From the NCBI GenBank assembly GCA_905479815.1, contig CAJQOA010000043.1, positions 1 through 34,945 on the forward strand: DNA of 34,945 bases. The letters are read 5' to 3'. Source of the DNA: an uncultured Psychroserpens sp. (GTDB lineage: Bacteria > Bacteroidota > Bacteroidia > Flavobacteriales > Flavobacteriaceae). The notes beneath the pieces were generated by a model. That model was not told the origin of the DNA and made no database searches. It was given only the letters and a program-made list of their open reading frames with translations. Each line of letters begins with the position of its first letter. The first letter of the stretch is position 1. The position numbers and the translations under genes are program-made. Shown one piece after another: positions 13,474 through 34,945 of the stretch.

Positions 13474-13888
13474 AATTGTTGGTTTTTAGATAAATTAAAT
13501 CTATGCAAAATGCAACAATATTAGATAGGGGCAATAATAACAACCACTATAAAAAACATACAAAAGAGTTAAGTACTAGTTTGTTTTGGTGAATTACACT
13601 GTTTGTAGTGCTTTTGATGGGTAATTGTTTAGTTTTATTCTTTGTGAAGAGCCCTGATAAAGGGGTTTTGTATGGTAAATGTTGTGTTAAATTATTTAAA
13701 ACGTATAGGTATTTTTGAAGATAAATAAGGGTTTAAGTTGCTTTTTAAGGCAGTTTCTTTAAGTTTTGAAGGAATAAGCTATGATTTTTTGTCGCTAATA
13801 GTTTTTAAAATGGTTTCATTTGATAACGAAAAGGTTCTCATTCTAGTAAATCATTTCTTTTTGTAGGAATGGTTTAAGTGTAAGGATA
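13474..13888. other. 415-bp non-coding region inside the polysaccharide locus
   Basis: No convincing gene is seen here. The region separates the GNAT gene from the ACP/FabH/ACP/SDR block, whereas most other genes in the locus are separated by under 15 bp. A possible minus-strand promoter lies near the right end of the ACP gene: TATTGTTG at 13513-13520 (one mismatch to TAnnTTTG), with a TTG 20 nt further upstream. It would give a leader of about 30 nt. A 29-codon plus-strand open frame at 13503 was not accepted. The gap may reflect a module boundary where genes were exchanged. Confidence 0.5.
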
Positions 13889-22630: not shown

Positions 22631-22674
22631 ATGATAAATATCATATTGATTTTAAGTTATGTTGACTAATTTTA
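22631..22674 (+). promoter_or_regulatory. TGAT-N4-ATCA palindrome plus -7 box before the plus-strand universal stress gene
   Basis: The palindrome TGATAAATATCA (22632-22643, extended to ATGAT...ATCAT) is followed, 30-37 nt from its centre, by the -7 box TAATTTTA at 22667-22674. Transcription would start near 22679, which puts the palindrome at about -41.5. This is class II CRP/FNR activator geometry. Because an ATG at 22659 would lie upstream of the transcript start, the site also supports the ATG at 22695 as the true start. Confidence 0.75.
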
Positions 22675-22694
22675 TATTAATAAATTTAGATCTC

Positions 22695-23531
22695 ATGAAA
22701 AATATATTATTGCTAACAGACTTTTCTGAAAACTCCTCTAATGCTATACAGTATGCTCTAAACTTATATAAAAGGGATACATGCTCTTTTTTTATTCTTC
22801 ATGTTAAAAGTTCAACGTCTTACACGACTGATGATTTAATGTCATCAGGAAATAAAAGTATTTACGATTCGATTATTGAAGATGAAAAAAATAAACTCTC
22901 TTCTATCATAACTCAATTAAAGAAGGATTTTAAAACTGAAGATTTTCAATTTGAAACTATGGTTGACTATGATGTTTTAACAGATTCTATTAAACAGGTT
23001 GTAATAGCAAAAAAAATTGACCTTATCGTAATGGGGAGCAATGGAGTTACTGGAGCTAAAGAAATTGTTTTTGGTAGTAATACTATAAATGTTATTAGAA
23101 AGGTAGATTGTGATATTTTAGTTATCCCTGAAGGTTTTAAATACGAAGAGCCAAAGGAGATGTTACTTCCTTTAGATTCTCTTGATTCTATTAGTGGGAC
23201 TCCTTTTTTGAAGACATTAAAATTCTTGAAAAAATCACAAAGTTCTATACATATACTTCGAATTAATCCAAGTGGAATCATGCCAGACGAACAGAAAGAA
23301 GATCTAAATCATATCGCATATTTTTTAAAAGACACTCCACATAAATACAGAGTTGTAAATAACATATCAATTGATAATGTTGTGAATAGTTATATTCAAA
23401 CAAATGATATTAATTTAACTGTTATTATTGTGCAAAAAGAATCCTTATTTGAACGTTTTTTTATGGGGTCATCAACTGCTAAAATTGGAAACTATTTGCT
23501 AGTTCCACTACTTGTGTTTCATAGCGATTAA
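22695..23531 (+). CDS. Tandem-domain universal stress protein
   Basis: This 278-residue protein has an N-terminal UspA domain (about 1-145) starting MKNILLLTDFSENS and an ATP-binding motif G-x2-G-x9-GSN (GSNG ... FGSN). A second, degenerate Usp domain (about 150-278) lacks that motif. UspA proteins bind ATP and support survival during growth arrest or oxygen limitation; the exact target is usually unknown. An upstream ATG at 22659 would add 12 hydrophobic residues not seen in its four paralogues, and lies before the predicted transcript start, so it was rejected. The gene is the only one of the five Usp genes on the plus strand and is divergent from the polysaccharide locus. Confidence 0.88.
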   Translation: MKNILLLTDFSENSSNAIQYALNLYKRDTCSFFILHVKSSTSYTTDDLMSSGNKSIYDSIIEDEKNKLSSIITQLKKDFKTEDFQFETMVDYDVLTDSIKQVVIAKKIDLIVMGSNGVTGAKEIVFGSNTINVIRKVDCDILVIPEGFKYEEPKEMLLPLDSLDSISGTPFLKTLKFLKKSQSSIHILRINPSGIMPDEQKEDLNHIAYFLKDTPHKYRVVNNISIDNVVNSYIQTNDINLTVIIVQKESLFERFFMGSSTAKIGNYLLVPLLVFHSD

Positions 23532-23560
23532 ATAGCGTTTTGTTAGTATTAAAAATTAGA

Positions 23561-23595
23561 AAAGCCACTATAAGTTATTTATAGTGGCTTTTTTT
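23561..23595. terminator. Bidirectional terminator between convergent stress genes
   Basis: A 13-bp perfect stem (23561-23573 with 23579-23591, 5-nt loop) is followed by seven T residues on the plus strand (23589-23595). On the minus strand it is followed by TTTTC and further T-rich sequence. It should end the plus-strand Usp gene and, less strongly, the minus-strand hsp20 operon. Confidence 0.85.
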
Positions 23596-23614
23596 AATTC
23601 AGAATACCTTCAGT

Positions 23615-24268
23615 TTAATTCTCCTCATTTGTTACCACTTTAATATTAATGAGTTTTTCTTCTTCTAAAACAACAAGTGCTAATTTTACATAATCATTAA
23701 CCGTTTTTTCTATCGATGTTGGATCTGTGATATTTATATAACCTTTCCATATAAGTTCTCTATCTTTAGTAGGACAAATACAGTACATTGAAGTTTCTGC
23801 CTTGTAAACTTTAAATTCTTCGTAGTAATCTGTATCATAGAAAATATCCTGGTGCATTAGATACTCGTCCTTGAAACGACGATACGTTTCATCATAATTT
23901 TTGTAGTTCTTACGATAGGCGACTTTATCTTCTATACCAACTATTTTAGTAAGTAATATGGTGTCAAAACCATCTTCAATGAGCTGACTTTCTAAAGTTT
24001 CTAGTTCTGTTTCGGTCATTTTATCTGTCTTGCCAGCAGTGTCTAATACACTTAAACTTGTCATAGCCTCAGATCCTCTCAATTCTAGCTCTGTTTTAAG
24101 TTTTTCTTCAAATTCTAGCCTTGCAACTTTATCTGAAGTCAATCCAACAACCAAAACTTTATATGGCTCATATGTATCGATATTTGGATTTTTCCAACTC
24201 TCTACTAATTGTGTTGAAGAACAATTAAATAATAGAAAAACAGTCATTAATAATAGTGTCTTTTTCAT
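23615..24268 (-). CDS. Lipoprotein of unknown function
   Basis: This 217-residue protein begins with a short signal ending LLFNC, so Cys16 should be lipidated and the protein anchored in the periplasm-facing membrane. The mature part starts with SSTQLVESWKNP and a strand pattern (YKVLVVGL) followed by alternating helices and strands. I do not recognise a named family. It is the last gene of the hsp20 transcription unit, 5 bp after the helical 149-residue gene, and runs into a strong terminator. Sharing a promoter with hsp20 suggests a role in envelope stress or dormancy, which is inference only. Confidence 0.7.
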   Translation of the reverse strand: MKKTLLLMTVFLLFNCSSTQLVESWKNPNIDTYEPYKVLVVGLTSDKVARLEFEEKLKTELELRGSEAMTSLSVLDTAGKTDKMTETELETLESQLIEDGFDTILLTKIVGIEDKVAYRKNYKNYDETYRRFKDEYLMHQDIFYDTDYYEEFKVYKAETSMYCICPTKDRELIWKGYINITDPTSIEKTVNDYVKLALVVLEEEKLINIKVVTNEEN

Positions 24269-24273
24269 AGCAT

Positions 24274-24723
24274 TTATTTTTTTGCAATTAAATGTCTCAG
24301 TTTATCTTCTTTCTTGATGCTTTTGATAATCTCGAAAAGTTGCGTTTTTAGGGATTTATATTCTTTTGTATATTCTGAAATAGCTATGATTAAATCACTA
24401 TGTGCTTTGGTATATGCTTTTTCTTCTTCTATCTGGTCAATACCATCAACCATTATTTGAAGTTCATTTTCATGGATTTTTATAGCTTCGATGAGTATAT
24501 TATTTTGTTTTTGAGATCTATTAATGACATCAATAATTTCTTTAGTATCAGAAAACCTGTCAGAATCGATTATTAATGTGGTAAATGATGTTATTAGATC
24601 TTCAAAAAATAGATGTTCATCTTTTATAAATCGTAATTCAGATAGCCATTCTTGTGACGCTTGGTGCATCTCATCGGCACTTAGCCATTCTACATATTTA
24701 ACCTGTGTTTGTATAGTTTTCAT
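24274..24723 (-). CDS. Helical stress-cluster protein of unknown function (paralogue of 25341-25760)
   Basis: This 149-residue protein is predicted to be almost entirely alpha-helical, with no signal peptide or membrane helix. It shares a pattern with the 139-residue protein encoded at 25341-25760: an ELRF-x-K element, an LxTLII element followed by a charged helix, and a C-terminal SLKTQ-F...KS-K stretch. The two are probably distant paralogues. It lies 61 bp after hsp20, a gap holding a 10-bp hairpin, and 5 bp before the lipoprotein gene. A role as a small protein-binding helical bundle is likely but the partner is unknown. Confidence 0.65.
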   Translation of the reverse strand: MKTIQTQVKYVEWLSADEMHQASQEWLSELRFIKDEHLFFEDLITSFTTLIIDSDRFSDTKEIIDVINRSQKQNNILIEAIKIHENELQIMVDGIDQIEEEKAYTKAHSDLIIAISEYTKEYKSLKTQLFEIIKSIKKEDKLRHLIAKK

Positions 24724-24739
24724 TATTTGTTTTTTTAAG

Positions 24740-24778
24740 AGAAAGCAGAGTAAAGCCCCTCAACCTAATCTGCTTTCT
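24740..24778. repeat. Hairpin between hsp20 and the helical-protein gene
   Basis: A 10-bp inverted repeat (24740-24749 with 24769-24778) encloses a 19-nt loop in the mRNA between hsp20 and the next gene. On the minus strand it is followed by A residues, not U, so it is not a normal terminator. It could shield the hsp20 3' end or set the ratio of the two products. Confidence 0.45.
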
Positions 24779-24784
24779 TGATGA

Positions 24785-25234
24785 TTACAAAACCTCTATT
24801 ACTTTTTTAGGGGTTTCTTTAGCTTCCTCTATTTTTTGAAGATTTAGTTTTAGAATACCATTTTTGTAAGTAGCTTTTACATCTTGATTGGTATTAACTG
24901 ATACAGGAAGTTTTAAGGACCTTTTAAAGGAATTGTAACTAAACTCTTTACGAGTGTAACCTTCGTCTTTTTCTTCGACCTCTTTTTTCTTTTGACCACA
25001 AACATTTAGTGTGTTATCGTCTATAGTAATTTCAAAATCCTTTTTTGAAAATCCTGGAGCTGCAAATTCAATTTCATAGTCTTGATCGTGTTCTTTGACA
25101 TTCATTGCAGGCATCAAACTGTCTTCTTCTAAAAAGTCATGGTTGAAAAAATCATCGTTGCTTAAAAAGTTTTTAAGACTGTCGTTGTTCCATGGAAAAA
25201 ATCTATTTCCGTTGTTAAATTTAATAAGTGACAT
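24785..25234 (-). CDS. Small heat shock protein Hsp20 (alpha-crystallin)
   Basis: Hsp20 proteins are ATP-independent holdases that keep unfolding proteins soluble. This 149-residue protein has an N-terminal phenylalanine- and asparagine-rich arm (1-40), an alpha-crystallin domain (about 41-135) with the APGFSKKDFEI strand and the ATYKNGILKL signature at 121-130, and a short C-terminal tail with an I-x-V motif (IEV) of the kind used for oligomer contacts. It is the first gene of a minus-strand unit with the helical and lipoprotein genes. A TGAT-N4-ATCA palindrome and -7 box lie 38-80 bp upstream, so induction is expected to follow the same signal as the Usp genes. Confidence 0.93.
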   Translation of the reverse strand: MSLIKFNNGNRFFPWNNDSLKNFLSNDDFFNHDFLEEDSLMPAMNVKEHDQDYEIEFAAPGFSKKDFEITIDDNTLNVCGQKKKEVEEKDEGYTRKEFSYNSFKRSLKLPVSVNTNQDVKATYKNGILKLNLQKIEEAKETPKKVIEVL

Positions 25235-25271
25235 ACTATTAGAATTTAGATATTAAACTTTATTTATAGTT

Positions 25272-25314
25272 CTAAATTACTAACTAATTGTGCTTTGTAA
25301 AATGATAAATATCA
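25272..25314 (-). promoter_or_regulatory. TGAT-N4-ATCA palindrome plus -7 box before hsp20
   Basis: The palindrome TGATAAATATCA lies at 25303-25314 (plus-strand reading). On the minus strand TAATTTAG at 25279-25272 begins 30 nt from the palindrome centre. Predicted transcription start is near 25267 and the hsp20 ATG is at 25234. The -7 box deviates from TAnnTTTG only near its 3' end. Confidence 0.7.
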
Positions 25315-25340
25315 GTTTGATAATTGTTTTAAGGAAGAAA

Positions 25341-25760
25341 CTAGACGTTTTTAATTGTACTTTTTAAATACTGAAATATTTGTGTTTTCAAACTTTCAAG
25401 ATCTATAATAAAATTATAAGATTTGCGCTCTAATTGATTTTGTATTTTAATAAAAAATAGATCACACTCTAAATTATCGCATTCTATTTTATTTATGATT
25501 TCATTACTATGGGTATTTAATTCAAGTAATAAGCTTTCTATTGAAATCATATGTAAATCTATTTTTTTGTCAAAAATTATTAGTGTTTCAAATAGGTTTA
25601 TAACTCCTTCTTTAAAAATTCTAGCTTCAATTAAGAATTTGCAAAATCTTAATTCTTCCTCTAATGTTACTAATTTTAGTTTGTACTGGCTTACATTATA
25701 AAGTAATTCGTCAATGCCTTTGTTGCTATTAAAACTTCTATATTCTAATTGTGTTTCCAT
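25341..25760 (-). CDS. Helical protein of unknown function (paralogue of 24274-24723)
   Basis: This 139-residue protein is predicted to be an all-alpha, coiled-coil-prone cytoplasmic protein. It resembles the 149-residue neighbour in the hsp20 unit at several points (ELRF near residues 36-39, the LFETLII element, and C-terminal LKTQIFQYLKS). It starts 11 bp downstream of the metallo-beta-lactamase nuclease gene and is the last gene of that operon. No catalytic motif is visible. Occurrence of one copy in each of two neighbouring stress operons suggests a shared scaffold or regulatory function that I cannot name. Confidence 0.6.
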   Translation of the reverse strand: METQLEYRSFNSNKGIDELLYNVSQYKLKLVTLEEELRFCKFLIEARIFKEGVINLFETLIIFDKKIDLHMISIESLLLELNTHSNEIINKIECDNLECDLFFIKIQNQLERKSYNFIIDLESLKTQIFQYLKSTIKNV

Positions 25761-25771
25761 GGTTTCTTGGA

Positions 25772-27145
25772 TTAAATTATTACTTTTTCAACGTCAGTTA
25801 ATTTGGGGATTTTTGCATTCCACCCATATACATCTTCTATTTTTACTCTAAAAGCATCTAATGCAGTAGGTTCTCCGTGAATTAAATAGACTTTTTCTGG
25901 AATATTTTTAATGGTACTCATCCAGTTTATTAAATCCTGTTGATCTCCATGAGCAGATAAACTCTCAATATTTTTTATAGTGGCTTTTACTGGATAGTAT
26001 TTACCAAAAAAGCGAATTTCGTGTGCGCCTTCTTGTAGTTGTCTACCGCGAGTACCTTCGGCTTGATAGCCAACCAATAGGACTGTAGTTGACGGTTCGT
26101 CTATAAGTTGTTGTAAATAGGTAAGCACTCTTCCACCAGTGACCATGCCGCTTCCTGCAATCACAATTTTGGATCGCTTATCATCTATAGTGTCCCAAGT
26201 TTCTTTATACGATTGAATGATATTTACATGGTTGCACATCGCATTGTAGTCTTGCATAGATAATTTATGCCATTTTGGGAAACGTTGGAATACATCTATA
26301 ACATTGTTTCCCATAGGACTATCAACGAAAATAGGAATGTTTGGAATCTTACGCTCTTTATATAGTTTCCAAAGGATATACATTAACGTTTGTAGTCGTT
26401 CTACAGCAAAACTAGGAATGATTAAATTTCCTTTTTTATGAATGGTTTCCTTTATTATTTCAACGAGAATGTCCTCGACATTATCTTCAGGGTGTATTTT
26501 GTTCCCATACGTGCTTTCTATAAATAAGAAATCTGCCCATTCTGGTGTTTTAGGATCGTTCAATAGATAATCATTCTGTCTACCAATATCTCCAGAAAAC
26601 ACAAATCGTTTGCCATCAATGTCTATTTCTATAAATGTGGCACCAATGATATGCCCATTATATTGAAACCGATAAGAGATATGTTCTGATAGTGTAATCC
26701 ATTTGTCTTCAATTTCTACTTCAAATAGTTTAATTGTTTTTTCTGCATCTAAAATCGTGTAAAAGGGGAGTGCAGGCTTATGTTTACTATAGTTCTCTTT
26801 ATTTGCTTTGTTAGCTTCTTCTTCATGTATTTTGGCACTATCCTTTAATATGATCTCGGCTATAGCTAATGTTGGTGCTGTACCAATAACCTTCCCTTTG
26901 AAACCTTGTTTTGTTAAGCGAGGCAAATAGCCAACGTGGTCTAAGTGACCATGAGTAAGTAAGACGACATCTATTGATGATACGTCTATTGGGAGGTCAT
27001 TCCAATTCAATTCTCTTAATTCTTTAAGACCTTGAAACATTCCACAATCGATAAGTATGTTTTTTTCTGATGTTTCAATTAGAAATTTAGAACCTGTAAC
27101 CACTCCTGAAGCTCCTAAAAAGTTGATTTTTACAAATTTTTCCAT
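25772..27145 (-). CDS. Beta-CASP metallo-beta-lactamase nuclease (YSH1-like)
   Basis: This 457-residue protein has a metallo-beta-lactamase fold with the zinc motif THGHLDHVG (His65, His67, Asp69, His70), the beta-CASP insertion beginning FIESTYGN, the GSGMVTGGR segment, and the C-terminal SAHGDQQDL and IHGEPTALDAF motifs. Family members are RNA endo- or exonucleases related to CPSF-73/Ysh1. The start chosen is the ATG at 27145, which gives MEKFVKINFLGASG; a GTG start further upstream would overlap the preceding gene and add residues outside the fold. It is preceded 10 bp away by the ATP-cone nuclease gene and followed by a helical protein. Together they suggest nucleic acid processing during stress. 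Confidence 0.88.
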   Translation of the reverse strand: MEKFVKINFLGASGVVTGSKFLIETSEKNILIDCGMFQGLKELRELNWNDLPIDVSSIDVVLLTHGHLDHVGYLPRLTKQGFKGKVIGTAPTLAIAEIILKDSAKIHEEEANKANKENYSKHKPALPFYTILDAEKTIKLFEVEIEDKWITLSEHISYRFQYNGHIIGATFIEIDIDGKRFVFSGDIGRQNDYLLNDPKTPEWADFLFIESTYGNKIHPEDNVEDILVEIIKETIHKKGNLIIPSFAVERLQTLMYILWKLYKERKIPNIPIFVDSPMGNNVIDVFQRFPKWHKLSMQDYNAMCNHVNIIQSYKETWDTIDDKRSKIVIAGSGMVTGGRVLTYLQQLIDEPSTTVLLVGYQAEGTRGRQLQEGAHEIRFFGKYYPVKATIKNIESLSAHGDQQDLINWMSTIKNIPEKVYLIHGEPTALDAFRVKIEDVYGWNAKIPKLTDVEKVII

Positions 27146-27155
27146 AGTGATTAAT

Positions 27156-27995
27156 TTAGCCACATAATTGTGTGATTTCTTTAATGATTTTATCTTTTCT
27201 AGTTTCAGATACACCTAAATGATCTAAGTAAAAATTGTCTTGTATTAATTCTCTGCAAAGGACCACATCTCTACTGAGTAGAAATTGTTTTTCTCTATTA
27301 GTGAGTAGTGTAGAAACAGTTATTGGGTATAAACCCAATCGATCAATTCTATCTTTTAAGCCATTGTTTTTTGGGTAATCCCAACTTAATAAATCGAGAC
27401 CACAACAATTTCCATATTGTAGTGCATCTTTGGTAAATCTTGTATTTGTAACAACCCAGCCCTCTGTGAGCAAAGTATTTTTGTGTTTACTATGATCCCA
27501 ATTAGTTTTTATATCTTGATATCTAGAATTGATGTATAGCGGTATCTTAACATTGCATTTAAGGCCTTGTTCGCCATGAAATTTGCATTCAATAACTGTA
27601 GCACTGCCATTTTTAAAGGCAATAATATCAGTTTCATGAGACACACATTTACCTTGTAATATGATGCCAACCTCAGTTTTATATCCTGAATAATTTAGAA
27701 TAGCACTTACAAAGCGCTCAAAAGGAAAACCAGTTGGTCCTAGTTCATATATGGCTTTTTTGAGTTTGTACTTTGAAGCTAAATGACTTTTGTTTTTTTT
27801 AAGCAAAGCAAAAGCTCTATTGTAAATCTCTTTAGTTGAAATGCCTTGATATAACTCATCACGAACTTTATCTAGAATTTGATTTATAATAGTGTCATCT
27901 GCACCTGTTCTCTTTAGAGATGCACGTAATTTATCAAGTGAGAATTTAACTTTTTCACCAGATGACTTAATAATTTCTATATTTTGAATGCTCAT
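27156..27995 (-). CDS. ATP-cone domain fused to an Mrr/RecB-like PD-(D/E)XK nuclease
   Basis: This 279-residue protein begins with an ATP-cone domain (about 4-88), the nucleotide-sensing module known from ribonucleotide reductases and NrdR. A restriction-endonuclease-like domain follows (about 90-205), with an early Glu93 (FERFV), Asp123 in HETDIIAF and the E136-x-K138 pair in VIECKFH, the PD-(D/E)XK catalytic set of the Mrr/RecB superfamily. The C-terminal 60 residues are helical. The predicted activity is DNA or RNA cleavage controlled by ATP or dATP level. Such fusions have been noted in the literature on the ATP-cone, but the biological role is unknown. It opens an operon with a beta-CASP nuclease and lies directly after a terminator. 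Confidence 0.8.
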   Translation of the reverse strand: MSIQNIEIIKSSGEKVKFSLDKLRASLKRTGADDTIINQILDKVRDELYQGISTKEIYNRAFALLKKNKSHLASKYKLKKAIYELGPTGFPFERFVSAILNYSGYKTEVGIILQGKCVSHETDIIAFKNGSATVIECKFHGEQGLKCNVKIPLYINSRYQDIKTNWDHSKHKNTLLTEGWVVTNTRFTKDALQYGNCCGLDLLSWDYPKNNGLKDRIDRLGLYPITVSTLLTNREKQFLLSRDVVLCRELIQDNFYLDHLGVSETRKDKIIKEITQLCG

Positions 27996-28006
27996 ATTAT
28001 TGTTTT

Positions 28007-28044
28007 AAAAAAAACTGCCAAACGATGAAAATCTTGACAGTTTT
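28007..28044 (-). terminator. Terminator after the eRF1-like gene
   Basis: An inverted repeat with stem AAAACTG/CAGTTTT (28012-28018 with 28038-28044), extended inward by three pairs across one mismatch, is followed on the minus strand by eight U residues (28014-28007). It should end the Usp/eRF1-like transcript and insulate the downstream ATP-cone nuclease gene. Confidence 0.7.
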
Positions 28045-28079
28045 ATTTCACTAACTAATAAAATTATCGAGTTTTATAT

Positions 28080-28481
28080 CTACATAAAAAAGTCTCTTAC
28101 CCAAGCTTTAACTTGATTATCTGTCATGCTATCAGCTTTTCGTACTCCTTTAATTTTTGTGCTCAAGTGTTGATAGTTTTCATGTAGTTCTTTACTAAAT
28201 TTTTCATTTGTTCCAGCTGGACCAAAAATGACTAAAGCATCGGTATTATTGATTTCTTTAGAAATACTTTTAAAATAAGCTTTGAGTTGTTGTTGTTCAC
28301 GCTCTAAGTATTTACTATCATGAACAACATTTTGTGGACCACCCTTTTGAGGTGTTCCTGAGCCACCATGAACATTGTAATGGTCTATGTTGGATGAAAC
28401 GCTCTTTAGTGTCTCATTGCTGTCTTCTAATGTTACGATTAGTGCTTTGTTTTTGTCTAACCAAATTCCTGTATTTTTCAT
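28080..28481 (-). CDS. eRF1 domain 3-like (bacterial eRF1-related) small protein
   Basis: This 133-residue protein starts MKNTGIWLDKNKALIV, then has a glycine-rich, histidine-containing loop (HGGSGTPQKGGP), the ALVIFGPAGTNEKFSKEL element and a C-terminal KADSMTDNQVKAWVRDFF. The last two features match the C-terminal L7Ae-like domain of bacterial eRF1-related proteins as I recall it, but this is pattern memory and not a search. Those proteins are thought to act on ribosomes. It follows a Usp gene by 14 bp and is followed by a terminator. Co-expression with Usp proteins and proximity to hpf fit a ribosome-directed dormancy role, an inference. Confidence 0.5.
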   Translation of the reverse strand: MKNTGIWLDKNKALIVTLEDSNETLKSVSSNIDHYNVHGGSGTPQKGGPQNVVHDSKYLEREQQQLKAYFKSISKEINNTDALVIFGPAGTNEKFSKELHENYQHLSTKIKGVRKADSMTDNQVKAWVRDFFM

Positions 28482-28495
28482 TTTATATCTAGTTT

Positions 28496-29353
28496 TTAGT
28501 TTCTTAAATCATGCATTACTAGTATTGGAACTTTTGAGTGGAACGATATATCCTTGACTAGTGGAGTTGTTAACATACTTCCGAAGAAAGAGTGCTTTTT
28601 GTTTATAAAAGTAACCATGTCGCTATCTCTACTTTCAATAAATAGATTTACTGCAGTTTCAACAGAGTAGTGCGGCAAGTAGTGAAACTTATAATTTGTA
28701 CCCTCCAAAATGTCTTCAAGTAATTGTTTATTTGCTTTTTGTGCTTTGTCTAATTCGTTTTCTTCTCCAGAAACATGAAGTACTATAATTGTTGATTCAC
28801 ATTTTTTCGCAATGTCTGTTAGATAAATTAGTTCTCGCCTTTTATAATGTGTTTTATAACTCGTTGGAAACACTATTTCTTTTGGTAAAATTCTTTTAGC
28901 ATTTAAAGGAACGACTATGACTGGGCAATTTCTTACTTTTTCCATGACATAAATTGATGTACTCCCAAAAGCAGTTTTTCTTGAATGTGTTTCTCCTTTG
29001 GTTCCCATTACAATCATTTCAATATCCTTTTGTTCTACAACATCTTTGATTGCTTCAATTGGGTTGTTGAAAACTGAGATTGTTTTGAATTGATGTTTAG
29101 GGTTCTCATATTCACTCATCGCAATCATGTCATAGACCTTTGCTAATCCATTTTCTGAATGTAATTTTTTAGACTCATAAAGTGCACTTCCTGGATCCAT
29201 TTTCATTAAGCTATCCATGATGTTATTCTCAACAGAGAATACATTTAGAAGGTAAAAGTCACAGTGTTCATTCTTATATAATTCTAAAGCATAATGCAAA
29301 GCTTGAGTTGCATTTTTAGAGAAGTCTGTTGGAATCAAAATTTTATGTCTCAT
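28496..29353 (-). CDS. Tandem-domain universal stress protein
   Basis: This 285-residue protein has a first UspA domain starting MRHKILIPTDFSKNAT and the ATP motif G-x2-G-x9-GST (GTKG ... FGST) near residues 125-140. A second degenerate domain ends in the paralogue pattern HSFFGSMLTTPLV...VPILVMHD. The ATG at 29353 is preferred to a TTG seven codons upstream because it aligns with the other four Usp proteins. It heads a two-gene unit with the eRF1-like gene 14 bp downstream. A TGAT-N4-ATCA site and -7 box lie upstream. Confidence 0.88.
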   Translation of the reverse strand: MRHKILIPTDFSKNATQALHYALELYKNEHCDFYLLNVFSVENNIMDSLMKMDPGSALYESKKLHSENGLAKVYDMIAMSEYENPKHQFKTISVFNNPIEAIKDVVEQKDIEMIVMGTKGETHSRKTAFGSTSIYVMEKVRNCPVIVVPLNAKRILPKEIVFPTSYKTHYKRRELIYLTDIAKKCESTIIVLHVSGEENELDKAQKANKQLLEDILEGTNYKFHYLPHYSVETAVNLFIESRDSDMVTFINKKHSFFGSMLTTPLVKDISFHSKVPILVMHDLRN

Positions 29354-29375
29354 AGCTTGTGTTTTTAAATTCAAT

Positions 29376-29418
29376 TAAATTTATGGCTTTAACAATAGCT
29401 TTAAAATGATAATTATCA
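29376..29418 (-). promoter_or_regulatory. TGAT-N4-ATCA palindrome plus -7 box before a Usp/eRF1-like unit
   Basis: The palindrome TGATAATTATCA, perfect through its spacer, lies at 29407-29418. On the minus strand TAAATTTA at 29383-29376 begins 30 nt from the centre. Predicted transcript start is near 29371, 18 nt before the ATG at 29353. The palindrome lies just inside the 70-bp gap after the next Usp gene. Confidence 0.75.
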
Positions 29419-29423
29419 GTTAA

Positions 29424-30254
29424 CTATCTTGGAATGACTAAAAAAGGAACCAATGGGTGAAAGCCAATTTTTTTTATAACGGGTTCTTTTACAATAGTTT
29501 CAATGAAACTATGCTTATAATTCACCATCGCTAGCATGTCTACTCCTAACAGTTCAATGAAGTCATTTATTTCTTCTGTCTTTTTTGCATACTTAGGCAT
29601 AAAATGAAAACTAGTGCTATAATCTCTTAAATGGCTTTCTAATTTGGACATGTTAAATTCTTGAATACCATTAAGTTTGTCTTTAGAGAGAATACAAACA
29701 GGCATTATTTTGGAGTTATAAAGCTCTGCTAGATCTCTCAGTGAGTCTAATTCTTTATAATCGTAAACTCTACTATAATCTGTTGGAAATGCTATTTGTT
29801 TTGGCTCAACAAAATCAAACTCATCTGGTACTATTAAAACAGGACAGCCTTTTATTTTTTTTATGACGCGAACAGTATTACTTCCGAAGAAAAATTCTTT
29901 AGCTCCAGTAGCTCCTTTTGTGCCCATAACAACGAGATCTATACGGTACTTATCAATTGAGGATTCTATAGCGTCTTTTAAATCGTTTGAGTTTAAAATA
30001 ATTTCAAAGTCATGATTTGCATTAGCGTTTACTGCTTGTGCCATGTCTTGGGTCTCTTTAAGTTCTTTAAAAGCGTCTTGAGAAACGATCTCCATTAGTT
30101 TGTTAGAGATGTTAGACATGGTGGAAGTCTTCATTTGAGTAGAATGAAGAATATAGAATTTGCATTCAGTTTGGCGATATAATTTTAATGCATAAACAAT
30201 AGCACTCCATGCATTATCTGAAAAATCTGTTGGTAGCAGTATATGTTTCATCAT
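29424..30254 (-). CDS. Tandem-domain universal stress protein
   Basis: This 276-residue protein has a first UspA domain starting MKHILLPTDFSDNAW with the ATP motif GTKG-x9-GSN (GTKGATGAKEFFFGSN) and a degenerate second domain ending KHSFIETIVKEP...VPFLVIPR. Two consecutive ATG codons begin the frame; either may be used. It shares the GATGAKE stretch with the protein of 31847-32698, suggesting that these two are the closest pair among the five. It is transcribed alone, with a TGAC-N4-ATCA site upstream and hemN located further upstream on the same strand. Confidence 0.88.
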   Translation of the reverse strand: MMKHILLPTDFSDNAWSAIVYALKLYRQTECKFYILHSTQMKTSTMSNISNKLMEIVSQDAFKELKETQDMAQAVNANANHDFEIILNSNDLKDAIESSIDKYRIDLVVMGTKGATGAKEFFFGSNTVRVIKKIKGCPVLIVPDEFDFVEPKQIAFPTDYSRVYDYKELDSLRDLAELYNSKIMPVCILSKDKLNGIQEFNMSKLESHLRDYSTSFHFMPKYAKKTEEINDFIELLGVDMLAMVNYKHSFIETIVKEPVIKKIGFHPLVPFLVIPR

Positions 30255-30275
30255 GATAATTTTTAGTTCGAGTTA

Positions 30276-30318
30276 TAAAATTAACTGAGATTGTTAATGC
30301 TAACTATGACAATTATCA
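30276..30318 (-). promoter_or_regulatory. TGAC-N4-ATCA palindrome plus -7 box before a Usp gene
   Basis: TGACAATTATCA at 30307-30318 differs from the other sites by one base in the plus-strand left half-site. On the minus strand TAATTTTA at 30283-30276 begins 30 nt from the centre. Predicted transcript start is near 30271, upstream of the ATG at 30254. Confidence 0.7.
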
Positions 30319-30426
30319 GTAAAGCTGAATAAATATTACAGGATACAATTGAATGTTGTAATTTGTTTGTACTTGACGCTAAAAAATGTAAACTACTGTA
30401 TTAGTATTATGTAATATAAACGTATT

Positions 30427-31791
30427 TTAAACTGTCAATGAAAATAATTGAGTTTGAGGTTTTTTTCTTTGTAACAGTAAATCAAAAGCCATGCATATAT
30501 TTCTAATAAATGGTTTCCCTTTTTTTGTCACAGAAATTGATTTTGATTGTATGTCAATGAGACCGTCGTTCTCTAATTCTTTAAGTCTTATAAGTGTATC
30601 TGGAAGTTCTTTAAAATTCATTTTACTGTTATTCCAACTGGTTTTAAAGTGACACATAAGATTAAGAATATGTTGCCTAATTATTAAGTCTTCATCATTA
30701 AGAATATGACCTCTAAAGATGGGTAAAAGATTAGCATCCAATAAATGATAGTAGTCTTCAATACTTTTTGTGTTTTGTGCAAAACCATACCAGCTATCAC
30801 TAATTGCAGAGACACCTAATCCAACCATAACCTGTGTTTTGGATGACGTGTAACCCATAAAGTTTCTATGTAATGTTTCATTCTCTAGGGCAAGATGCAT
30901 TGCGTCTGTTTTTAAAGCGAAATGATCCATGCCTATTTCAATATAATCGGCCTCTTCAAGCATGTTTTTACCTGTTTCATATTGTCTGCGTTTAATTTCG
31001 CCAGTTGGTAAGTCATGGTCCTTATAACCTCGTTGACCATTGCCTTTTATCCAAGGTACATGCGCATAGCTGTAAAAAGCAATACGGTCTGGAAGTAAGG
31101 TTTTTGTTTTTCTTATTGTTTCTTTTACGTGAGCTTCTGTTTGAAATGGTAAGCCAAAAATTATATCATGACTTACTGAAGTATATCCAATGCGACGTGC
31201 TGCTTGAGTTACTTTTTTTACGTTTTCAAATGGTTGAATTCTATGTATTGCCTTTTGGACTGTTTCGTTATAATCTTGAACTCCAAAACTAACTCTCCTA
31301 AAACCTAAATCGTAAAGTGTTTGTAAATGTGAATCAGTAGTGTTGTTTGGATGGCCTTCAAAACTAAATTCATAGTTTTCTGCAAGAGTTGTTCGTTTAA
31401 GGATCTCTTTGATAAGATAGTTTAAGTTTTTAGGACTAAAAAAAGTTGGTGTTCCGCCACCAAGATGTAGCTCCTTTATTTTTGGCTCTGAACCAAATAG
31501 TTTGCAGTATAAATCCCATTCTTTAATTACAGCTTCTATATAAGGGGTTTCTACGTCGTGCCGTTTTGTAATGCGTTTGTTACATCCACAAAAGGTGCAT
31601 AAACTCTCGCAAAACGGTAAATGTATGTAAAGGCTGATACCTTCAGTTGTATTACTTTCGGTAAAGGATTTAACTATACAAGATTTCCATTTATGTAATG
31701 AAAAGGTGTTAATATCCCAATAGGGAACCGTTGGGTAGCTTGTATATCTTGGTCCAGCGATATTATATTTATTTACTAATGATTGATACAT
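30427..31791 (-). CDS. hemN: Oxygen-independent coproporphyrinogen III oxidase HemN
   Basis: HemN makes protoporphyrinogen IX by radical SAM decarboxylation and replaces the oxygen-requiring HemF when oxygen is scarce. The 454-residue protein has the start pattern NIAGPRYTSYPTVPYW typical of genuine HemN, the iron-sulfur motif Cys61-x3-Cys65-x2-Cys68 with an extra Cys70, the GGGTPTF segment and a full-length C-terminal HemN domain. The N-terminal pattern and the Cys70 distinguish it from HemW-type chaperones. It lies between two Usp genes. A degenerate copy of the TGAT-N4-ATCA element precedes it. hemN is a classic FNR-family target in other bacteria, which supports reading the neighbouring palindromes as FNR-type sites. 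Confidence 0.93.
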   Translation of the reverse strand: MYQSLVNKYNIAGPRYTSYPTVPYWDINTFSLHKWKSCIVKSFTESNTTEGISLYIHLPFCESLCTFCGCNKRITKRHDVETPYIEAVIKEWDLYCKLFGSEPKIKELHLGGGTPTFFSPKNLNYLIKEILKRTTLAENYEFSFEGHPNNTTDSHLQTLYDLGFRRVSFGVQDYNETVQKAIHRIQPFENVKKVTQAARRIGYTSVSHDIIFGLPFQTEAHVKETIRKTKTLLPDRIAFYSYAHVPWIKGNGQRGYKDHDLPTGEIKRRQYETGKNMLEEADYIEIGMDHFALKTDAMHLALENETLHRNFMGYTSSKTQVMVGLGVSAISDSWYGFAQNTKSIEDYYHLLDANLLPIFRGHILNDEDLIIRQHILNLMCHFKTSWNNSKMNFKELPDTLIRLKELENDGLIDIQSKSISVTKKGKPFIRNICMAFDLLLQRKKPQTQLFSLTV

Positions 31792-31807
31792 TGTAATTAT
31801 GGTATTA

Positions 31808-31849
31808 TAAAGGTGTATTGTGAGGAAGAGTGTGCTAAATGAAATATCA
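31808..31849 (-). promoter_or_regulatory. Degenerate activator site before hemN
   Basis: On the minus strand 31849-31840 reads TGATATTTCA, which keeps the TGAT half-site and flanking AC of the regulon motif but is two bases short. CACCTTTA at 31815-31808 lies at the expected -7 position but lacks the TA start. The site overlaps the last bases of the preceding Usp gene. It is a weak or diverged version of the element. Confidence 0.35.
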
Positions 31850-32698
31850 GTTCTTGTCTTTTAATGGAATTACCAAAAAGGGAATATTTAAATGAAATCC
31901 AATTTGATTAATTGTGTTTTTGAAGAATAAATTTTCAAAGAATGAATGCTTATTATTAATCATAGCTAAGAGATTGATTTTGTACTTAATTTGAAACTCA
32001 CTAATAGCATCTGTAACATTCATATTTTTAACATCGTGAAATAGAAAAGTGTTGTTTTTAAATGACGATTCTAAGTTTGCTTTGTTTGCTTTTTGTGTTT
32101 CTGTAAGTTCATGACCTATAGAGATATGCATGGCATTAATCCTAGAATGATGTGATGTAGCTATGTCTTTTAAGATGTTTAGTTTTGAGTTTTTGTACAC
32201 GACTTCAAAATCTGTTGGAAATAATATTTCCATTGGAGATTCGTATGAAAAACCAGATGGAATTGCCAATATTGGGCATTTTATTTCTTTAAATATGTGC
32301 ACTGTATTTGAGCCAAACAAAATTTCTTTTGCCCCTGTAGCGCCTTTAGTTCCCATTATAATTATGTCTATAGAATTGTCATTGACATAATCTTTAACGC
32401 CAGATATAATCGTATCAAATCTTGCTTGAGTTACAAATTTATGTTTGGGGTTGTTTTCAAATTGCTTAGAAATCTTAGCTACTAATTTTTCTAGACTCTC
32501 TTGTGAAGTAGTTCTAATGGCATCTCCCAAGCCAAATTGCGCAGGATATCCAAGTACATACTCAACATGATAAACAACTGGTGTATAGGTGTTAAATAAA
32601 TGAAATGTACAAGTGTCGTTTTTAAATAATTGTATGGCATATTTTATAGCATTCCAAGAATTGTCTGAAAAATCTGTTGGTAAAAGTATATGTTTCAT
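31847..32698 (-). CDS. Tandem-domain universal stress protein
   Basis: This 283-residue protein has a first UspA domain beginning MKHILLPTDFSDNSW and an ATP motif GTKGATGAKEILFGSN, then a degenerate second domain ending KHSFFENLFFKN...IPFLVIPL. It starts 14 bp after the stop of the next Usp gene upstream, so it is the second gene of a two-Usp operon controlled by the site near 33618. hemN begins 55 bp beyond its stop and may also be reached by read-through. Confidence 0.88.
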   Translation of the reverse strand: MKHILLPTDFSDNSWNAIKYAIQLFKNDTCTFHLFNTYTPVVYHVEYVLGYPAQFGLGDAIRTTSQESLEKLVAKISKQFENNPKHKFVTQARFDTIISGVKDYVNDNSIDIIIMGTKGATGAKEILFGSNTVHIFKEIKCPILAIPSGFSYESPMEILFPTDFEVVYKNSKLNILKDIATSHHSRINAMHISIGHELTETQKANKANLESSFKNNTFLFHDVKNMNVTDAISEFQIKYKINLLAMINNKHSFFENLFFKNTINQIGFHLNIPFLVIPLKDKN

Positions 32699-32712
32699 AA
32701 TCCTATTTTTTA

Positions 32713-33561
32713 TTAAAAGCGCGCCGTATTTTGCATTGCCAATATTGGTATTTCTAACCCTAGACTTACTTTATCAATTGTTGAAGGAAATAACATGTCT
32801 TCTAAGAAGGAATGCTGGGTGTTAACCATAGTTATCATATCAATATTTTTCTCTTTGATATGTTTTTTGATTGTTTCAGCTACCTTCTTGTTGTTTTCAT
32901 GACAAAAATTAACTTCGTTTTCTCGTAATGTGTCTTTTATAAATGCTTGATTATCCTCTTGTCTTATTGATAATTTATGGCTTTTTGACACGTGTAATAC
33001 ATCAATAATACTTCTATAGGATTTTGCCAAATTTGATAGTAGTTTCAGTTCGCGACGTTTATAAGGCATTAGATAATTAGTAGGGAATAGAATATGTTTG
33101 GGCTGCGTATTTGTGTAATTTGATGGTATAGCTAATACAGGACATTGTACATACTTTAATACTTGAAATGTTTGGCTTCCAAATACAATATGACGTTCAT
33201 CAGATTTGCCTTTTGTTCCCATGATGATGAGGTCTATGTTTTTAGCTTCAGATATGAGATTTGCTTCATCAACTAACGTGTTATAGGCAGAAATAATATG
33301 ATATGTGTAACGAGGGTTTGGAGATATCTCCTTAACCGTTTTAAGTAAGTTCTCTAAACTAGTTTGAGATTCATTTCTAACACTATTTAAAACATCTTCA
33401 AAAACGTCACGTGACACCAATTCGTCATGATCATAAAATTCATTTTGATAAGCATTCATGAAATAGAATGTTGTCTTTTGATATTTAAAAAATTCTAATG
33501 CGTACTTAATTGCATTCATTGAGTTTTCAGAGAAATCGGTTGGTAGAAGTATAGATAACAT
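32713..33561 (-). CDS. Tandem-domain universal stress protein
   Basis: This 282-residue protein has a first UspA domain beginning MLSILLPTDFSENSM with the ATP motif GTKGKSDERHIVFGSQ (G-x2-G-x9-GS) and a degenerate second domain ending QHSFLEDMLFPSTI...IPILAMQN. It is the most divergent of the five in the ATP loop. It is the first gene of a two-Usp operon, with a TGAT-N4-ATCA site and -7 box 26-68 bp upstream. A 196-bp gap separates it from hpf. Confidence 0.88.
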   Translation of the reverse strand: MLSILLPTDFSENSMNAIKYALEFFKYQKTTFYFMNAYQNEFYDHDELVSRDVFEDVLNSVRNESQTSLENLLKTVKEISPNPRYTYHIISAYNTLVDEANLISEAKNIDLIIMGTKGKSDERHIVFGSQTFQVLKYVQCPVLAIPSNYTNTQPKHILFPTNYLMPYKRRELKLLSNLAKSYRSIIDVLHVSKSHKLSIRQEDNQAFIKDTLRENEVNFCHENNKKVAETIKKHIKEKNIDMITMVNTQHSFLEDMLFPSTIDKVSLGLEIPILAMQNTARF

Positions 33562-33586
33562 AATGTTTGTATTTAGTGTTCAATAG

Positions 33587-33629
33587 TAAATGTAGTCTGT
33601 TAATCATATGTAAACTATGATATATATCA
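33587..33629 (-). promoter_or_regulatory. TGAT-N4-ATCA palindrome plus -7 box before the two-Usp operon
   Basis: TGATATATATCA at 33618-33629 is a perfect palindrome including its spacer. On the minus strand TACATTTA at 33594-33587 begins 30 nt from the centre. Predicted transcript start is near 33582, 21 nt before the ATG at 33561. Confidence 0.75.
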
Positions 33630-33757
33630 GATGGTTAGATGTTTAAAAGATTGATGTTTCTTTCGTTATGATTTCAGTTTATAAATCAATAGACCTTATT
33701 ATAACGTTTCTCATTTTCTGACGAAAAAGCACTTTTGTTATCCTTTAGTCTTTCTAT

Positions 33758-34060
33758 TTATAGATAAGGCTTTAGAACATTTTTTCGTTTTTTGAGCTGC
33801 TTGTCTAAATCACTAATAACATGTTTTACTGCTACTTCATAATTTTTTTCATTTGCAGAAGCAAAAACTCTTGGTCCAGTTAGACTAAGTTCAATTTCAC
33901 AAACTTTCCCATGACCTTTTGGATCATTTTCTTTTTTGAAAAACACATCTGCATGAATGAGCATATCATATTTTTCGTTTAGTTTATTTAATTTTTCAGT
34001 TGTATACGTTTCTAGGCTTTGACTTGTATCTACGTGTATAAATTGGATATTTGTTTTCAT
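33758..34060 (-). CDS. hpf: Short ribosome hibernation-promoting factor HPF/YfiA
   Basis: This 100-residue protein is a short-form HPF/RaiA family member: NIQFIHVDTSQSLETYTTEKLNKL at the start, a basic/acidic middle with the DVFFK strand, and the ASANEKNYEVAVKHVISDLDKQLKKRK helix. The family binds the 30S decoding region during stationary phase and blocks translation, giving inactive ribosomes. Only the N-terminal domain is present, as in Bacteroidota and gamma-proteobacterial short HPF. It is transcribed alone from a TGAT-N4-ATCA promoter with an exact TAnnTTTG box and is insulated from upstream sequence by a terminator-like hairpin at 34246-34269. Confidence 0.9.
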   Translation of the reverse strand: MKTNIQFIHVDTSQSLETYTTEKLNKLNEKYDMLIHADVFFKKENDPKGHGKVCEIELSLTGPRVFASANEKNYEVAVKHVISDLDKQLKKRKNVLKPYL

Positions 34061-34084
34061 AAGGTTTTGTTTTTGTTATGTCAT

Positions 34085-34127
34085 CAAATGTATTTAATAT
34101 GATAGTGACGATAAATGATATTTATCA
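34085..34127 (-). promoter_or_regulatory. TGAT-N4-ATCA palindrome plus consensus -7 box before hpf
   Basis: TGATATTTATCA at 34116-34127, flanked to ATGAT...ATCAT, is followed on the minus strand by TACATTTG at 34092-34085, an exact TAnnTTTG, beginning 30 nt from the palindrome centre. Predicted transcript start is near 34080, 20 nt before the ATG. This is the best -7 box of the set. Confidence 0.8.
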
Positions 34128-34241
34128 TTGAACTACTTTTTTTTAGAGAAGAATTATTAATCGTATTTATTTGAAAGTAATTGGAGAAAATGACTAGGTA
34201 AAGTAAATGGTCTTAGTGGCTCTTTTAAAATATTATGAAAC

Positions 34242-34269
34242 AAAAAACGGGAAGCGTGAACTTCCCGTT
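34242..34269 (-). terminator. Terminator-like hairpin upstream of hpf
   Basis: A 9-bp stem (34246-34254 with 34261-34269, 6-nt loop) with a GGGAAG core is followed on the minus strand by six U residues (34247-34242). It would end any transcript coming from 34585 or from the membrane protein gene before the hpf promoter. Confidence 0.7.
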
Positions 34270-34373
34270 GCAGAAGTGTTTAAATTGATAGAAAACCAAT
34301 AGCTCAATAACATTTTAAAAACTTCATAACCTCCTAAACCACCTCAATTGGTGATTAAGGCTTTATTTTTAAA

Positions 34374-34401
34374 GAAACAGGAAGCCGAAACTTCCTGTTT
34401 C
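34374..34401 (-). terminator. Second terminator-like hairpin, related in sequence to 34246-34269
   Basis: An 11-bp stem (34374-34384 with 34391-34401, 6-nt loop) shares the GGAAG...CTTCC core with the hairpin at 34246-34269. On the minus strand it is followed by UUUCUUU, a weaker tract. It may be the first of two terminators for the transcript from 34585. Confidence 0.55.
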
Positions 34402-34585
34402 CTGAAAAGAGCTTAAATTAATTACCTAGTGTATTTGATCTCTAAAATGATTTTCCTTTTAAAAATCATCAAGTCAATTAAACTAAGTTATAATTTCAAA
34501 CTCTATATATGGTCAACAAAGTCTTACGATTTGCTAACCTGTATTTTAAAGTTTATTAGTAATTCAAAGAGCGTTTTTTAATTCT
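34374..34585 (-). ncRNA. Candidate small RNA under the TGAT-N4-ATCA regulon
   Basis: A regulon-type promoter (site 34621-34632, -7 box TATCTTAG at 34597-34590) would start a minus-strand transcript near 34585. The next about 210 nt contain no credible gene (the longest ATG frame I noticed is 15 codons) but do contain an 8-bp internal hairpin near 34442-34464 (ATGATTTT/AAAATCAT) and end in a terminator-like hairpin. This is an inference from promoter, absence of coding and terminator. A longer product ending at 34246 is possible. Confidence 0.35.
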
Positions 34586-34589
34586 AGTA

Positions 34590-34632
34590 CTAAGATAATC
34601 TAGTTCATGGGATTTAAAAATGATATATATCA
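34590..34632 (-). promoter_or_regulatory. TGAT-N4-ATCA palindrome plus -7-like box not followed by a protein gene
   Basis: TGATATATATCA at 34621-34632 is identical to the site before the two-Usp operon. On the minus strand TATCTTAG at 34597-34590 begins 30 nt from the centre, as in the other six promoters, although it matches TAnnTTTG less well. No protein gene follows in the next 500 bp. Confidence 0.6.
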
Positions 34633-34644
34633 GTTTTGATAAAA

Positions 34645-34945
34645 TCACATGTAAATGATATTATAAACTTCATTTAGTAGAAAAATACCGATAAGAAACA
34701 ATAGCGTATAAATTACCTGCACCAGCTTAACGTTAATAAATTTTAACCAAGAGACGGTTTGCTTCGGGAATATAAATAACGATAATCCTATAAGCAATGA
34801 TAACCATCCTATTGAGGTAATTATAGATTTAAAGTTTGGTTCCCAAATGTTGTGAAATAAAATGTTTAGTAGCCCAATAATTATAGCGATCAAGGCTGAT
34901 AGAATCAAAAATTTTTCATCGTTTAAATCATTAAAAATTTGTTTA
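34645..34945 (-). CDS. Small integral membrane protein, 5' end beyond the window
   Basis: At least 99 residues are encoded before the window edge; the frame stays open to 34945, so the start codon is outside and this is a partial gene. The visible part has three predicted membrane helices (around ILSALIAIIIGLLNILF, ITSIGWLSLLIGLSLFIF and LVQVIYTLLFLIGIFLL) and a HNIWEPNF loop that resembles small uncharacterised membrane proteins with an HNxW motif. A TTG at 34908 is the only start inside the window but the residues upstream (FNDLNDEKF) look like real coding sequence. Function unknown. The stop at 34645 lies 12 bp before the palindrome at 34632. Confidence 0.6.
   Translation of the reverse strand, partial: KQIFNDLNDEKFLILSALIAIIIGLLNILFHNIWEPNFKSIITSIGWLSLLIGLSLFIFPKQTVSWLKFINVKLVQVIYTLLFLIGIFLLNEVYNIIYM

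Follow-up and report, generated by a model that had tools for sequence, protein, structure and literature searches.

Class II promoters of the regulators FNR and ANR carry a TGAT...ATCA core at approximately position -41.5, which in the case of FNR is preceded by a T, and FnrS and other oxygen-controlled small RNAs lie behind an FNR-type activator site. In mycobacteria, the regulon of the NarL-type regulator DosR has partners of the Hsp20 and HPF types. It is induced by hypoxia and contains 10 universal stress proteins (Usp) among its 48 genes, as stated in PMC6127331. A locus of Burkholderia cenocepacia, lxa, codes for six universal stress proteins and is induced at low oxygen, and a CRP/FNR-family regulator was proposed for it in PMC6127331 and PMC9104464; the former also mentions the presence of FixLJ/FixK in Burkholderia. 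CRP/FNR homologs of Flavobacteriales cluster near MalR in the study PMC8510549, the main text of which contains neither the term 'universal stress' nor 'receiver'. Here, we describe a stretch of 34945 bases, the entire contig C43 (CAJQOA010000043.1) of an uncultured Psychroserpens sp. of the family Flavobacteriaceae, referred to as the window, in which seven TGAT-N4-ATCA palindromes precede genes for Usp proteins, Hsp20 and a ribosome hibernation factor as well as a structured non-coding RNA. The sequence data make it quite probable that all seven act as class II activator promoters and belong to a regulon for survival at low oxygen, which would be run by a PAS histidine kinase and a receiver-CRP fusion protein (REC-CRP).

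Seven palindromes at a fixed distance from the -7 box

The original prediction had placed palindromes at positions 22632, 25303, 29407, 30307, 33618, 34116 and 34621, each with a -7 box beginning 30 nt from the palindrome centre, and all coordinates and boxes were borne out. On the strand of the target gene, exactly 23 nt separate the last base of the palindrome from the TANNTT box at all seven sites; this arrangement is called N23 in the following. The resulting palindrome position of around -41.5 assumes that transcription starts around 12 nt past the beginning of the -7 box. The single promoter of the plus strand (22632..22674; palindrome 22632-22643, -7 box 22667-22674) belongs to a Usp gene with the called open reading frame (ORF) 22659-23531, the true start of which should lie further downstream since the called start precedes the -7 box. 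On the minus strand, predicted class II promoters are found in front of the genes for Hsp20 (24785-25234; promoter 25272..25314, palindrome 25303-25314, -7 box 25279-25272) and for two Usp proteins: one encoded at 28496-29374, whose called start is probably too far upstream (promoter 29376..29418, palindrome 29407-29418, -7 box 29383-29376), and one at 29424-30254, where one half-site reads TGAC (promoter 30276..30318, palindrome 30307-30318, -7 box 30283-30276). A further minus-strand promoter (33587..33629; palindrome 33618-33629, -7 box 33594-33587) precedes the Usp gene 32713-33561 and perhaps also serves the Usp gene 31847-32698 and the hemN-type gene 30427-31791, co-transcription being suggested by the short gaps between the three genes. 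The remaining two are located upstream of the HPF/S30AE gene 33758-34060 (promoter 34085..34127, palindrome 34116-34127, -7 box 34092-34085) and of the structured RNA (promoter 34590..34632, palindrome 34621-34632, -7 box 34597-34590). The targets named in the original prediction are protein genes; six of the promoters precede ORFs, and the 34621 site precedes an RNA and no ORF.

As to the targets, Usp, Hsp20 and HPF were supported, whereas the expected eRF1-like gene was not found among the window targets: the ORFs 23615-24268 and 25341-25760 have no Pfam match and 28080-28481 has only matches with an E value of 0.11. A degenerate copy of the element was said to lie upstream of hemN. There is indeed a broken sequence, TGATATTT-CATTT, but it lacks the N23 geometry, which rules out that the hemN-type gene has its own N23 site in the window; for this gene, Pfam gives Radical_SAM only, and the name hemN stems from the original prediction.

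Chance as the origin of the motif is ruled out by shuffles, reversed controls and the spacing histogram. With at most one mismatch, TGATN4ATCA occurs 56 times in the window as compared to 32.2 +/- 5.2 times in 100 shuffles, none of which reaches 56. Exact palindromes are additionally present at 13310 and 21490, neither with a box at N23; the latter falls within the ORF 21383-22468, and the former lies in a gap of the ORF list (cut-off 80 amino acids), where the minus strand, by eye, reads like a small acyl-carrier-protein gene. If one mismatch is allowed, two more N23 matches appear, one at 8681 within an ORF of the opposite strand and one at 34798 within the truncated ORF at the window end. 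In the host genome (3.3 Mb in 265 contigs, 88.7% complete), the palindrome is found 201 times and its reversed control 92 times, so that it is above random frequency genome-wide as well. When combined with TANNTT at N23, there are 22 matches and none for the control, as opposed to 12 versus 6 at N22; the number expected for a given spacing is around 6 (Poisson p 4e-7). Sixteen of these 22 sites are located on three contigs, namely C43 (6), C227 (7) and C255 (3).

The geometry recurs in relatives. For this comparison, 285 loci were retrieved with REC-CRP and 80 of them were kept, which together comprise 1.55 Mb and derive nearly exclusively from Flavobacteriaceae (Winogradskyella, Psychroserpens, Kordia, Olleya, Maribacter, Lutibacter and others). 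They contain 267 sites at N23, while the other spacings between 1 and 60 have a mean of 10.0 sites (standard deviation 4.2, maximum 21); a spacing of N0 is also raised, with 40 sites. All 267 sites lie outside of called ORFs, 246 of them at most 400 nt from an ORF start, and in 211 of the 364 genes with a site the palindrome begins 60-69 nt before the ORF. In the clustered set, window members included, N23 sites precede 16 of 17 Hsp20 and 13 of 16 HPF genes. The extended consensus is roughly AAAcTGATWWATATCATTTT followed by TAnnTTTR; TGAT is preceded by C (58%) or A (27%), and ATCA is followed by T (96%). Spacer positions 20-34 between the palindrome and the box carry only 0.05-0.31 bits each, and the fixed spacing is therefore no by-product of conserved DNA, which rules out general promoter conservation as its cause. 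Taken together, the fixed distance to the core promoter, seen at all seven window sites and at 267 sites in the loci, makes the promoter finding near certain and, together with the clustering of sites around a CRP/FNR-type regulator gene, supports a class II element of the CRP/FNR type.

A receiver-CRP fusion as candidate regulator

The last 825 bases of the window (34121-34945) match C227:205-1030 with 91.5% identity over 827 aligned positions. From this overlap, C227 runs on through the gene g128 and a Usp gene to the REC-CRP gene, around 1 kb past the right end of the window, and to a histidine kinase gene. REC-CRP (C227:2058-3110), which adjoins the gene of the two-PAS kinase, is one of five proteins of the host genome with a Crp-type helix-turn-helix match and consists of a receiver domain (PF00072, E 6.3e-27; residues D9, D10, D52 and K104 are kept) fused to a cyclic nucleotide-binding fold (PF00027, E 1.2e-17) and a Crp helix-turn-helix (PF13545, E 6.2e-14). 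Across 79 REC-CRP proteins, Asp52, Lys104, Glu316 and Arg320 hardly vary, the latter two being conserved in at least 97%. In an alignment made by eye, E316 and R320 correspond to the recognition-helix Glu and Arg of FNR and CRP, which read TGA. The identification as FNR-type stands at the level of the CRP/FNR family but not for plain FNR: the best candidate lacks the N-terminal cysteine cluster, the reference protein having Cys51 alone, beside the phospho-acceptor Asp, and one further cysteine column is present in 75% of its relatives. The AlphaFold model has a mean pLDDT of 81.9 and a pTM of only 0.61, so that it can be trusted for the individual domains but not for the way they are arranged. 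The best 50 Foldseek matches are GlxR, CRP, FixK2, NtcA and related proteins, and their TM-scores, normalized to the query length, are low (0.25-0.32).

Genomic location also points to REC-CRP. In six REC-CRP genomes with complete site listings, 44 of 93 N23 sites are located within 30 kb of its gene, while 1.6 would be expected. In 76 of the 80 loci (in L112, L126, L130 and L131 the REC-CRP ORF was not recognized by the script), a kinase gene precedes REC-CRP in 71 and a Usp gene follows in 69, 67 of which have an N23 site. Across the phylum, 32 of 198 drawn genomes match REC-CRP at an E value of 1e-50, 20 of which belong to other families of the class. REC-CRP is the best candidate for the regulator of the window promoters, and this assignment is likely. 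Several genomes, including G061, G110, G121, G133, G007, G031 and G037, possess two or three REC-CRP paralogs, some of which are 42-50% identical to that of the host. Another CRP-family gene (C227:15122-15760, locus L013) is found near a rhodanese-domain gene, and a nearby N23 promoter faces the other way; this protein and those on C116 and C146 were set aside as box readers by eye, as their recognition helices differ.

A second candidate, encoded on C64, is a cysteine-rich FNR-type paralog, which probably reads the same box. Among its 20 closest matches, six cysteine columns including a CxxC are kept in 19-20 proteins (the CxxC was required for selection, and none of the 20 loci was lost through that rule). 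The C64 protein itself lacks one of the six cysteines, the cysteine spacing is unlike that of E. coli FNR, and its alignment with an FNR of solved structure begins at residue 3. To weigh the two regulators, 149 genomes of the family were sorted by their presence; 66 of 84 REC-CRP-positive genomes were retained as having a full-length protein, and 89 of 94 FNR-type-positive genomes (G020, G036, G043, G051 and G124 were excluded as partial or weak). Genomes that have both regulators (36) contain on average 15.7 N23 sites, those with REC-CRP but no FNR-type protein (30) 9.6, those with the FNR-type protein but no REC-CRP (53) 7.6, and those with neither (30) 2.8. Expressed per Mb, to correct for the smaller genomes of the last class, the values are 4.1, 2.9, 2.2 and 1.2; controls range from 0.9 to 1.7 across the four classes. 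The three class contrasts tested gave p values of 5e-5, 2e-5 and 6e-5, in which the kinship of the genomes is ignored.

In an alternative reading, the C64 protein would have the leading part at the window promoters, and REC-CRP would be active at other sites or have no role. The FNR-only genomes exceed their control of 1.7, their sites include those of Usp, hemN-type, ccoN-ccoO and NirK-like genes, and the kept cysteines and the FNR alignment fit such a role. However, genomes with REC-CRP only have sites well above their control of 0.9, the sites concentrate around the REC-CRP gene, and the Usp gene next to it nearly always has one, which makes a leading role of C64 rather unlikely.

Targets outside of the island were sampled in 20 hand-picked stretches around N23 sites, from 10 FNR-only and 10 REC-only genomes; of 28 sites, 27 have an ORF behind them and 20 of these ORFs were scanned. 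A fused ccoN-ccoO gene and hemN-type radical SAM proteins of 453/454 amino acids (a name not derived from Pfam) are found behind the box in both groups, hemN-type radical SAM genes with an N23 box being present in four genomes besides that of the host. Further FNR-only targets are a multicopper-oxidase/cytochrome c protein labelled NirK-like, Usp, Rrf2, Pta, a CBS protein and an alginate-export-type porin; REC-only targets include an NDP-forming-type acyl-CoA synthetase, an EF-G-like protein, YceI, cytochrome c, a WG-repeat protein and an oxidoreductase, and one scanned protein has no match. The first PAS domain of the kinase has the heme sensors DosP and FixL as best PDB matches, and its His64, kept in 70 of 73 aligned kinases (three of 76 were omitted by length), aligns with a histidine of FixL and DosP that binds heme in those sensors. 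Since the box precedes ccoN-ccoO, hemN-type genes and one NirK-like gene in relatives, and since PAS1 matches DosP and FixL with the histidine kept, low oxygen is the likeliest input signal, and the 'stress/dormancy' regulon of the original prediction is, judging from these targets, better put as one of low-oxygen survival.

In the proposed mechanism, the FixL-related PAS histidine kinase would phosphorylate REC-CRP, whose CRP half would bind TGAT-N4-ATCA centred around -41.5, abutting the -33 region, and recruit RNA polymerase to the Bacteroidetes-type -7 box, while the C64 paralog probably reads the box as well. In the window, this would lead to the production of Usp proteins, Hsp20, the ribosome hibernation factor and a single structured non-coding RNA. 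The sequences directly show the motif and its geometry, the grouping of sites around the REC-CRP gene, the order of the genes and the covariation of the RNA, from which binding of the protein to DNA, the pairing of kinase and regulator, oxygen as signal and transcription are inferred. A palindrome adjoining the -33 region could also block polymerase, so that the sites might be repressor or dual sites instead of class II activator sites. This is very improbable: a fixed N23 to a kept -7 box is the pattern of an activator, a repressor site would tolerate variable spacing, and the CRP half of REC-CRP resembles activators such as CRP and FixK2.

Some observations weigh against a regulon run by the kinase and REC-CRP. 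Genomes with neither regulator, at the thresholds used, still average 2.8 sites as compared to a control of 1.0, and 5 of 30 have at least five, which makes a third box reader or missed orthologs possible; these genomes are also smaller (mean 2.4 Mb). The motifs of the two regulators are very similar and a by-eye search for separate motifs did not separate them, so that either regulator may act at a given window site. Only 50 of 73 kinases retain Arg84, whose counterpart in FixL and DosP is likewise an arginine. Lastly, C43 and C227 are linked by an overlap of 91.5% and not by identity, and C227:1-204 has no match in the window, which may reflect strain variation or duplication; C227 might then be a strain variant or a duplicate.

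The gene order agrees with that of the relatives, which, with variations, is kinase, REC-CRP, Usp, g128, Usp genes, f12, ATP-cone protein, metallo-β-lactamase (MBL) RNase, Hsp20, f5 and f6; the window shows this order reversed, with HPF and hemN inserted. Its other island genes (23615..28481, minus strand) are collinear with the relatives as f6, f5, Hsp20, f52, the β-CASP MBL RNase (25772-27214, minus), the ATP-cone/Mrr-like protein (27156-27995, minus) and f12. At the window end lies a 5'-truncated copy of g128 (34645..34944, minus), whose full form on C227 is a protein of 128 amino acids without a Pfam match; on C227 and in relatives, g128 comes after the regulator and the Usp gene.

The predicted RNA behind the 34621 promoter

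Between the 34621 site and the next site, the ORF list of the window contains no ORF of at least 80 amino acids. Instead, a structured non-coding RNA, R2, was recognized by fold z-score, covariation and homologs, the model spanning 34368..34589 on the minus strand; the transcript of around 215 nt is expected to start a few nt inside this span. It consists of an GCTCTTTGA element near the 5' end, the hairpin P1 around 'ATCGTAAGA', a long helix P2 and a terminator-like hairpin GAAACAGGAAGTTTCGGCTTCCTGTTTC, and the window transcript has a fold z of -6.0. In a nine-sequence consensus, which includes the C227 copy, 12 of 31 pairs show double changes. Among 33 R2 matches, aligned by fitting to a model that eight of them had built, 24 of 31 pairs are changed on both sides, as compared to 11.2 in shuffles (0 of 500 reach this value) and at most 12 in slid controls. 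A de novo consensus of eleven members that were not used for model building reproduces the long helix and the terminator, and 17 of its 32 pairs are changed on both sides. No Rfam 15 model matches the window at gathering threshold; the six sub-threshold matches within 34100-34700 (E 0.1-4.9) involve models of snoRNA and miRNA and of two bacterial sRNAs that are unrelated. Some weak R2 matches on the opposite strand, such as 34286-34407 of the window's plus strand (37 bits), were discarded as probable chance hits to terminator hairpins.

R2 members are present in 16 of the 149 family genomes at an E value of 0.001, some in tandem and some weak. REC-CRP is found in 15 of these 16 genomes and in 51 of the 133 others (p 2e-5), and in 13 of the 16 an R2 copy lies within 5 kb of REC-CRP. 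An N23 site follows g128 within 40 nt in 20 of 34 g128 loci, and in 15 of these another N23 site further on lies 50-80 nt upstream of an ORF. Under a less strict criterion, no ORF of 80 amino acids is found within 110 nt of 27 out of 35 first sites (that of the window is counted), with at least L058 and L106 being doubtful. Among the 28 R2 matches that were checked, a strict N23 promoter marks the start of 19 and a one-mismatch promoter that of two; the other seven have none, and some of these (L222, L223) are not the first copy of their array. In G125, G133, G034 and G061 (L207-L209, L212, L222-L224, L226, L230-L233), R2 forms arrays with two to four or more copies, several of which are matched by the 3' part of the model alone and have no promoter.

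It is highly unlikely that the 34621 element belongs to a lost or unrecognized small protein gene. Some related transcripts do contain short reading frames, but neither the window transcript nor that of C227 has a frame of at least 18 codons beginning in its first 150 nt, the structure is kept with compensatory changes, and among 19 homologs from outside the model building ten have a strict N23 promoter, two a one-mismatch promoter and seven none. R2 is thus well supported by comparison as an RNA family, with its transcription predicted from sequence.

When compared by eye with the 16S leaders of four relatives (AAGTTCATARACATATTG ... GCGTAAGATT or GCGTAAAATT), R2 shows a resemblance in its 5' element AAAGTTCWTT and in the CGTAAGA loop of P1. 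The GTTC element is present in 18 of the 20 R2 members listed (L208 reads GTTT and L056 is blank). The 16S leaders in L235-L239 and the R2 5' ends have AAGTTCAT / CGTAAGA-like elements in common, which suggests an antitermination element of the ribosomal RNA (rRNA) type in R2. It is tempting, though speculative, to regard R2 as a new family of oxygen-controlled RNA, whose 16S-leader-like 5' end recruits or titrates the rRNA antitermination machinery. If so, R2, induced together with the hibernation factor, could lower rRNA synthesis or control read-through into downstream stress genes at low oxygen.

A second RNA of around 90 nt, R1, with two hairpins, the second of which has a GGGGA-type loop, and a terminator, is found after g128 and holds the place of R2 in some genera. 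Most copies contain an unpaired stretch like CTATTAATC, the aligned copies lie behind the same promoter type, and 8 of 26 pairs are doubly changed in five sequences. Copies are located at L059:12539-12638, L071:12438-12532 and 12593-12679, L093:12435-12529 and 13780-13877, L056:12500-12602, L090:12422-12503 and L055:12525-12626. The R1 model has no member in the window or the host genome, and most whole-genome matches (at most 46 bits) are probably due to chance, R1 being solid only near its own loci.

Comparison with known systems

In the open-access literature, as judged by titles or the beginnings of abstracts, no description of the island, the fusion or the RNA in Flavobacteriaceae was found; the nearest published systems encountered are the Burkholderia lxa locus with Anr/FixK and the DosR regulon. 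For survival under oxygen limitation in this family, the locus offers a promoter code together with a candidate pair of sensor and regulator and a list of genes. R2 is a further candidate regulator, which would be transcribed from a promoter of the type that precedes the hibernation factor gene. With the FNR and ANR class II promoters, the window promoters share the palindrome core and the position around -41.5; however, they have the Bacteroidetes-type TAnnTT -7 box, and C or A stands before TGAT instead of the T of FNR. R2 resembles FnrS and other oxygen-controlled small RNAs in its predicted place behind an FNR-type activator site; it is around 215 nt long, forms tandem copies in some genomes and has a 5' element like a 16S leader. 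The regulator considered here is of the CRP fold, which sets it apart from DosR. A universal stress protein locus and a proposed CRP/FNR-family regulator are common to lxa with Anr/FixK; here, in contrast, phylum and promoter type are different, a regulator pair lies inside the island, a single geometry is used by the seven window promoters and a structured RNA is present. The FixL-FixJ-FixK cascade of rhizobia and Burkholderia likewise combines a FixL-related PAS kinase, a receiver and a CRP-family activator with targets of the cbb3 oxidase type. Whereas a separate FixJ with its own DNA-binding domain acts on fixK in that cascade, the receiver is fused to the CRP domains here, so that receiver and activator are one protein without a separate FixJ step, and kinase and regulator are encoded inside the stress island. 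The receiver-CRP fusion would thus represent a shortened FixLJ-FixK cascade.

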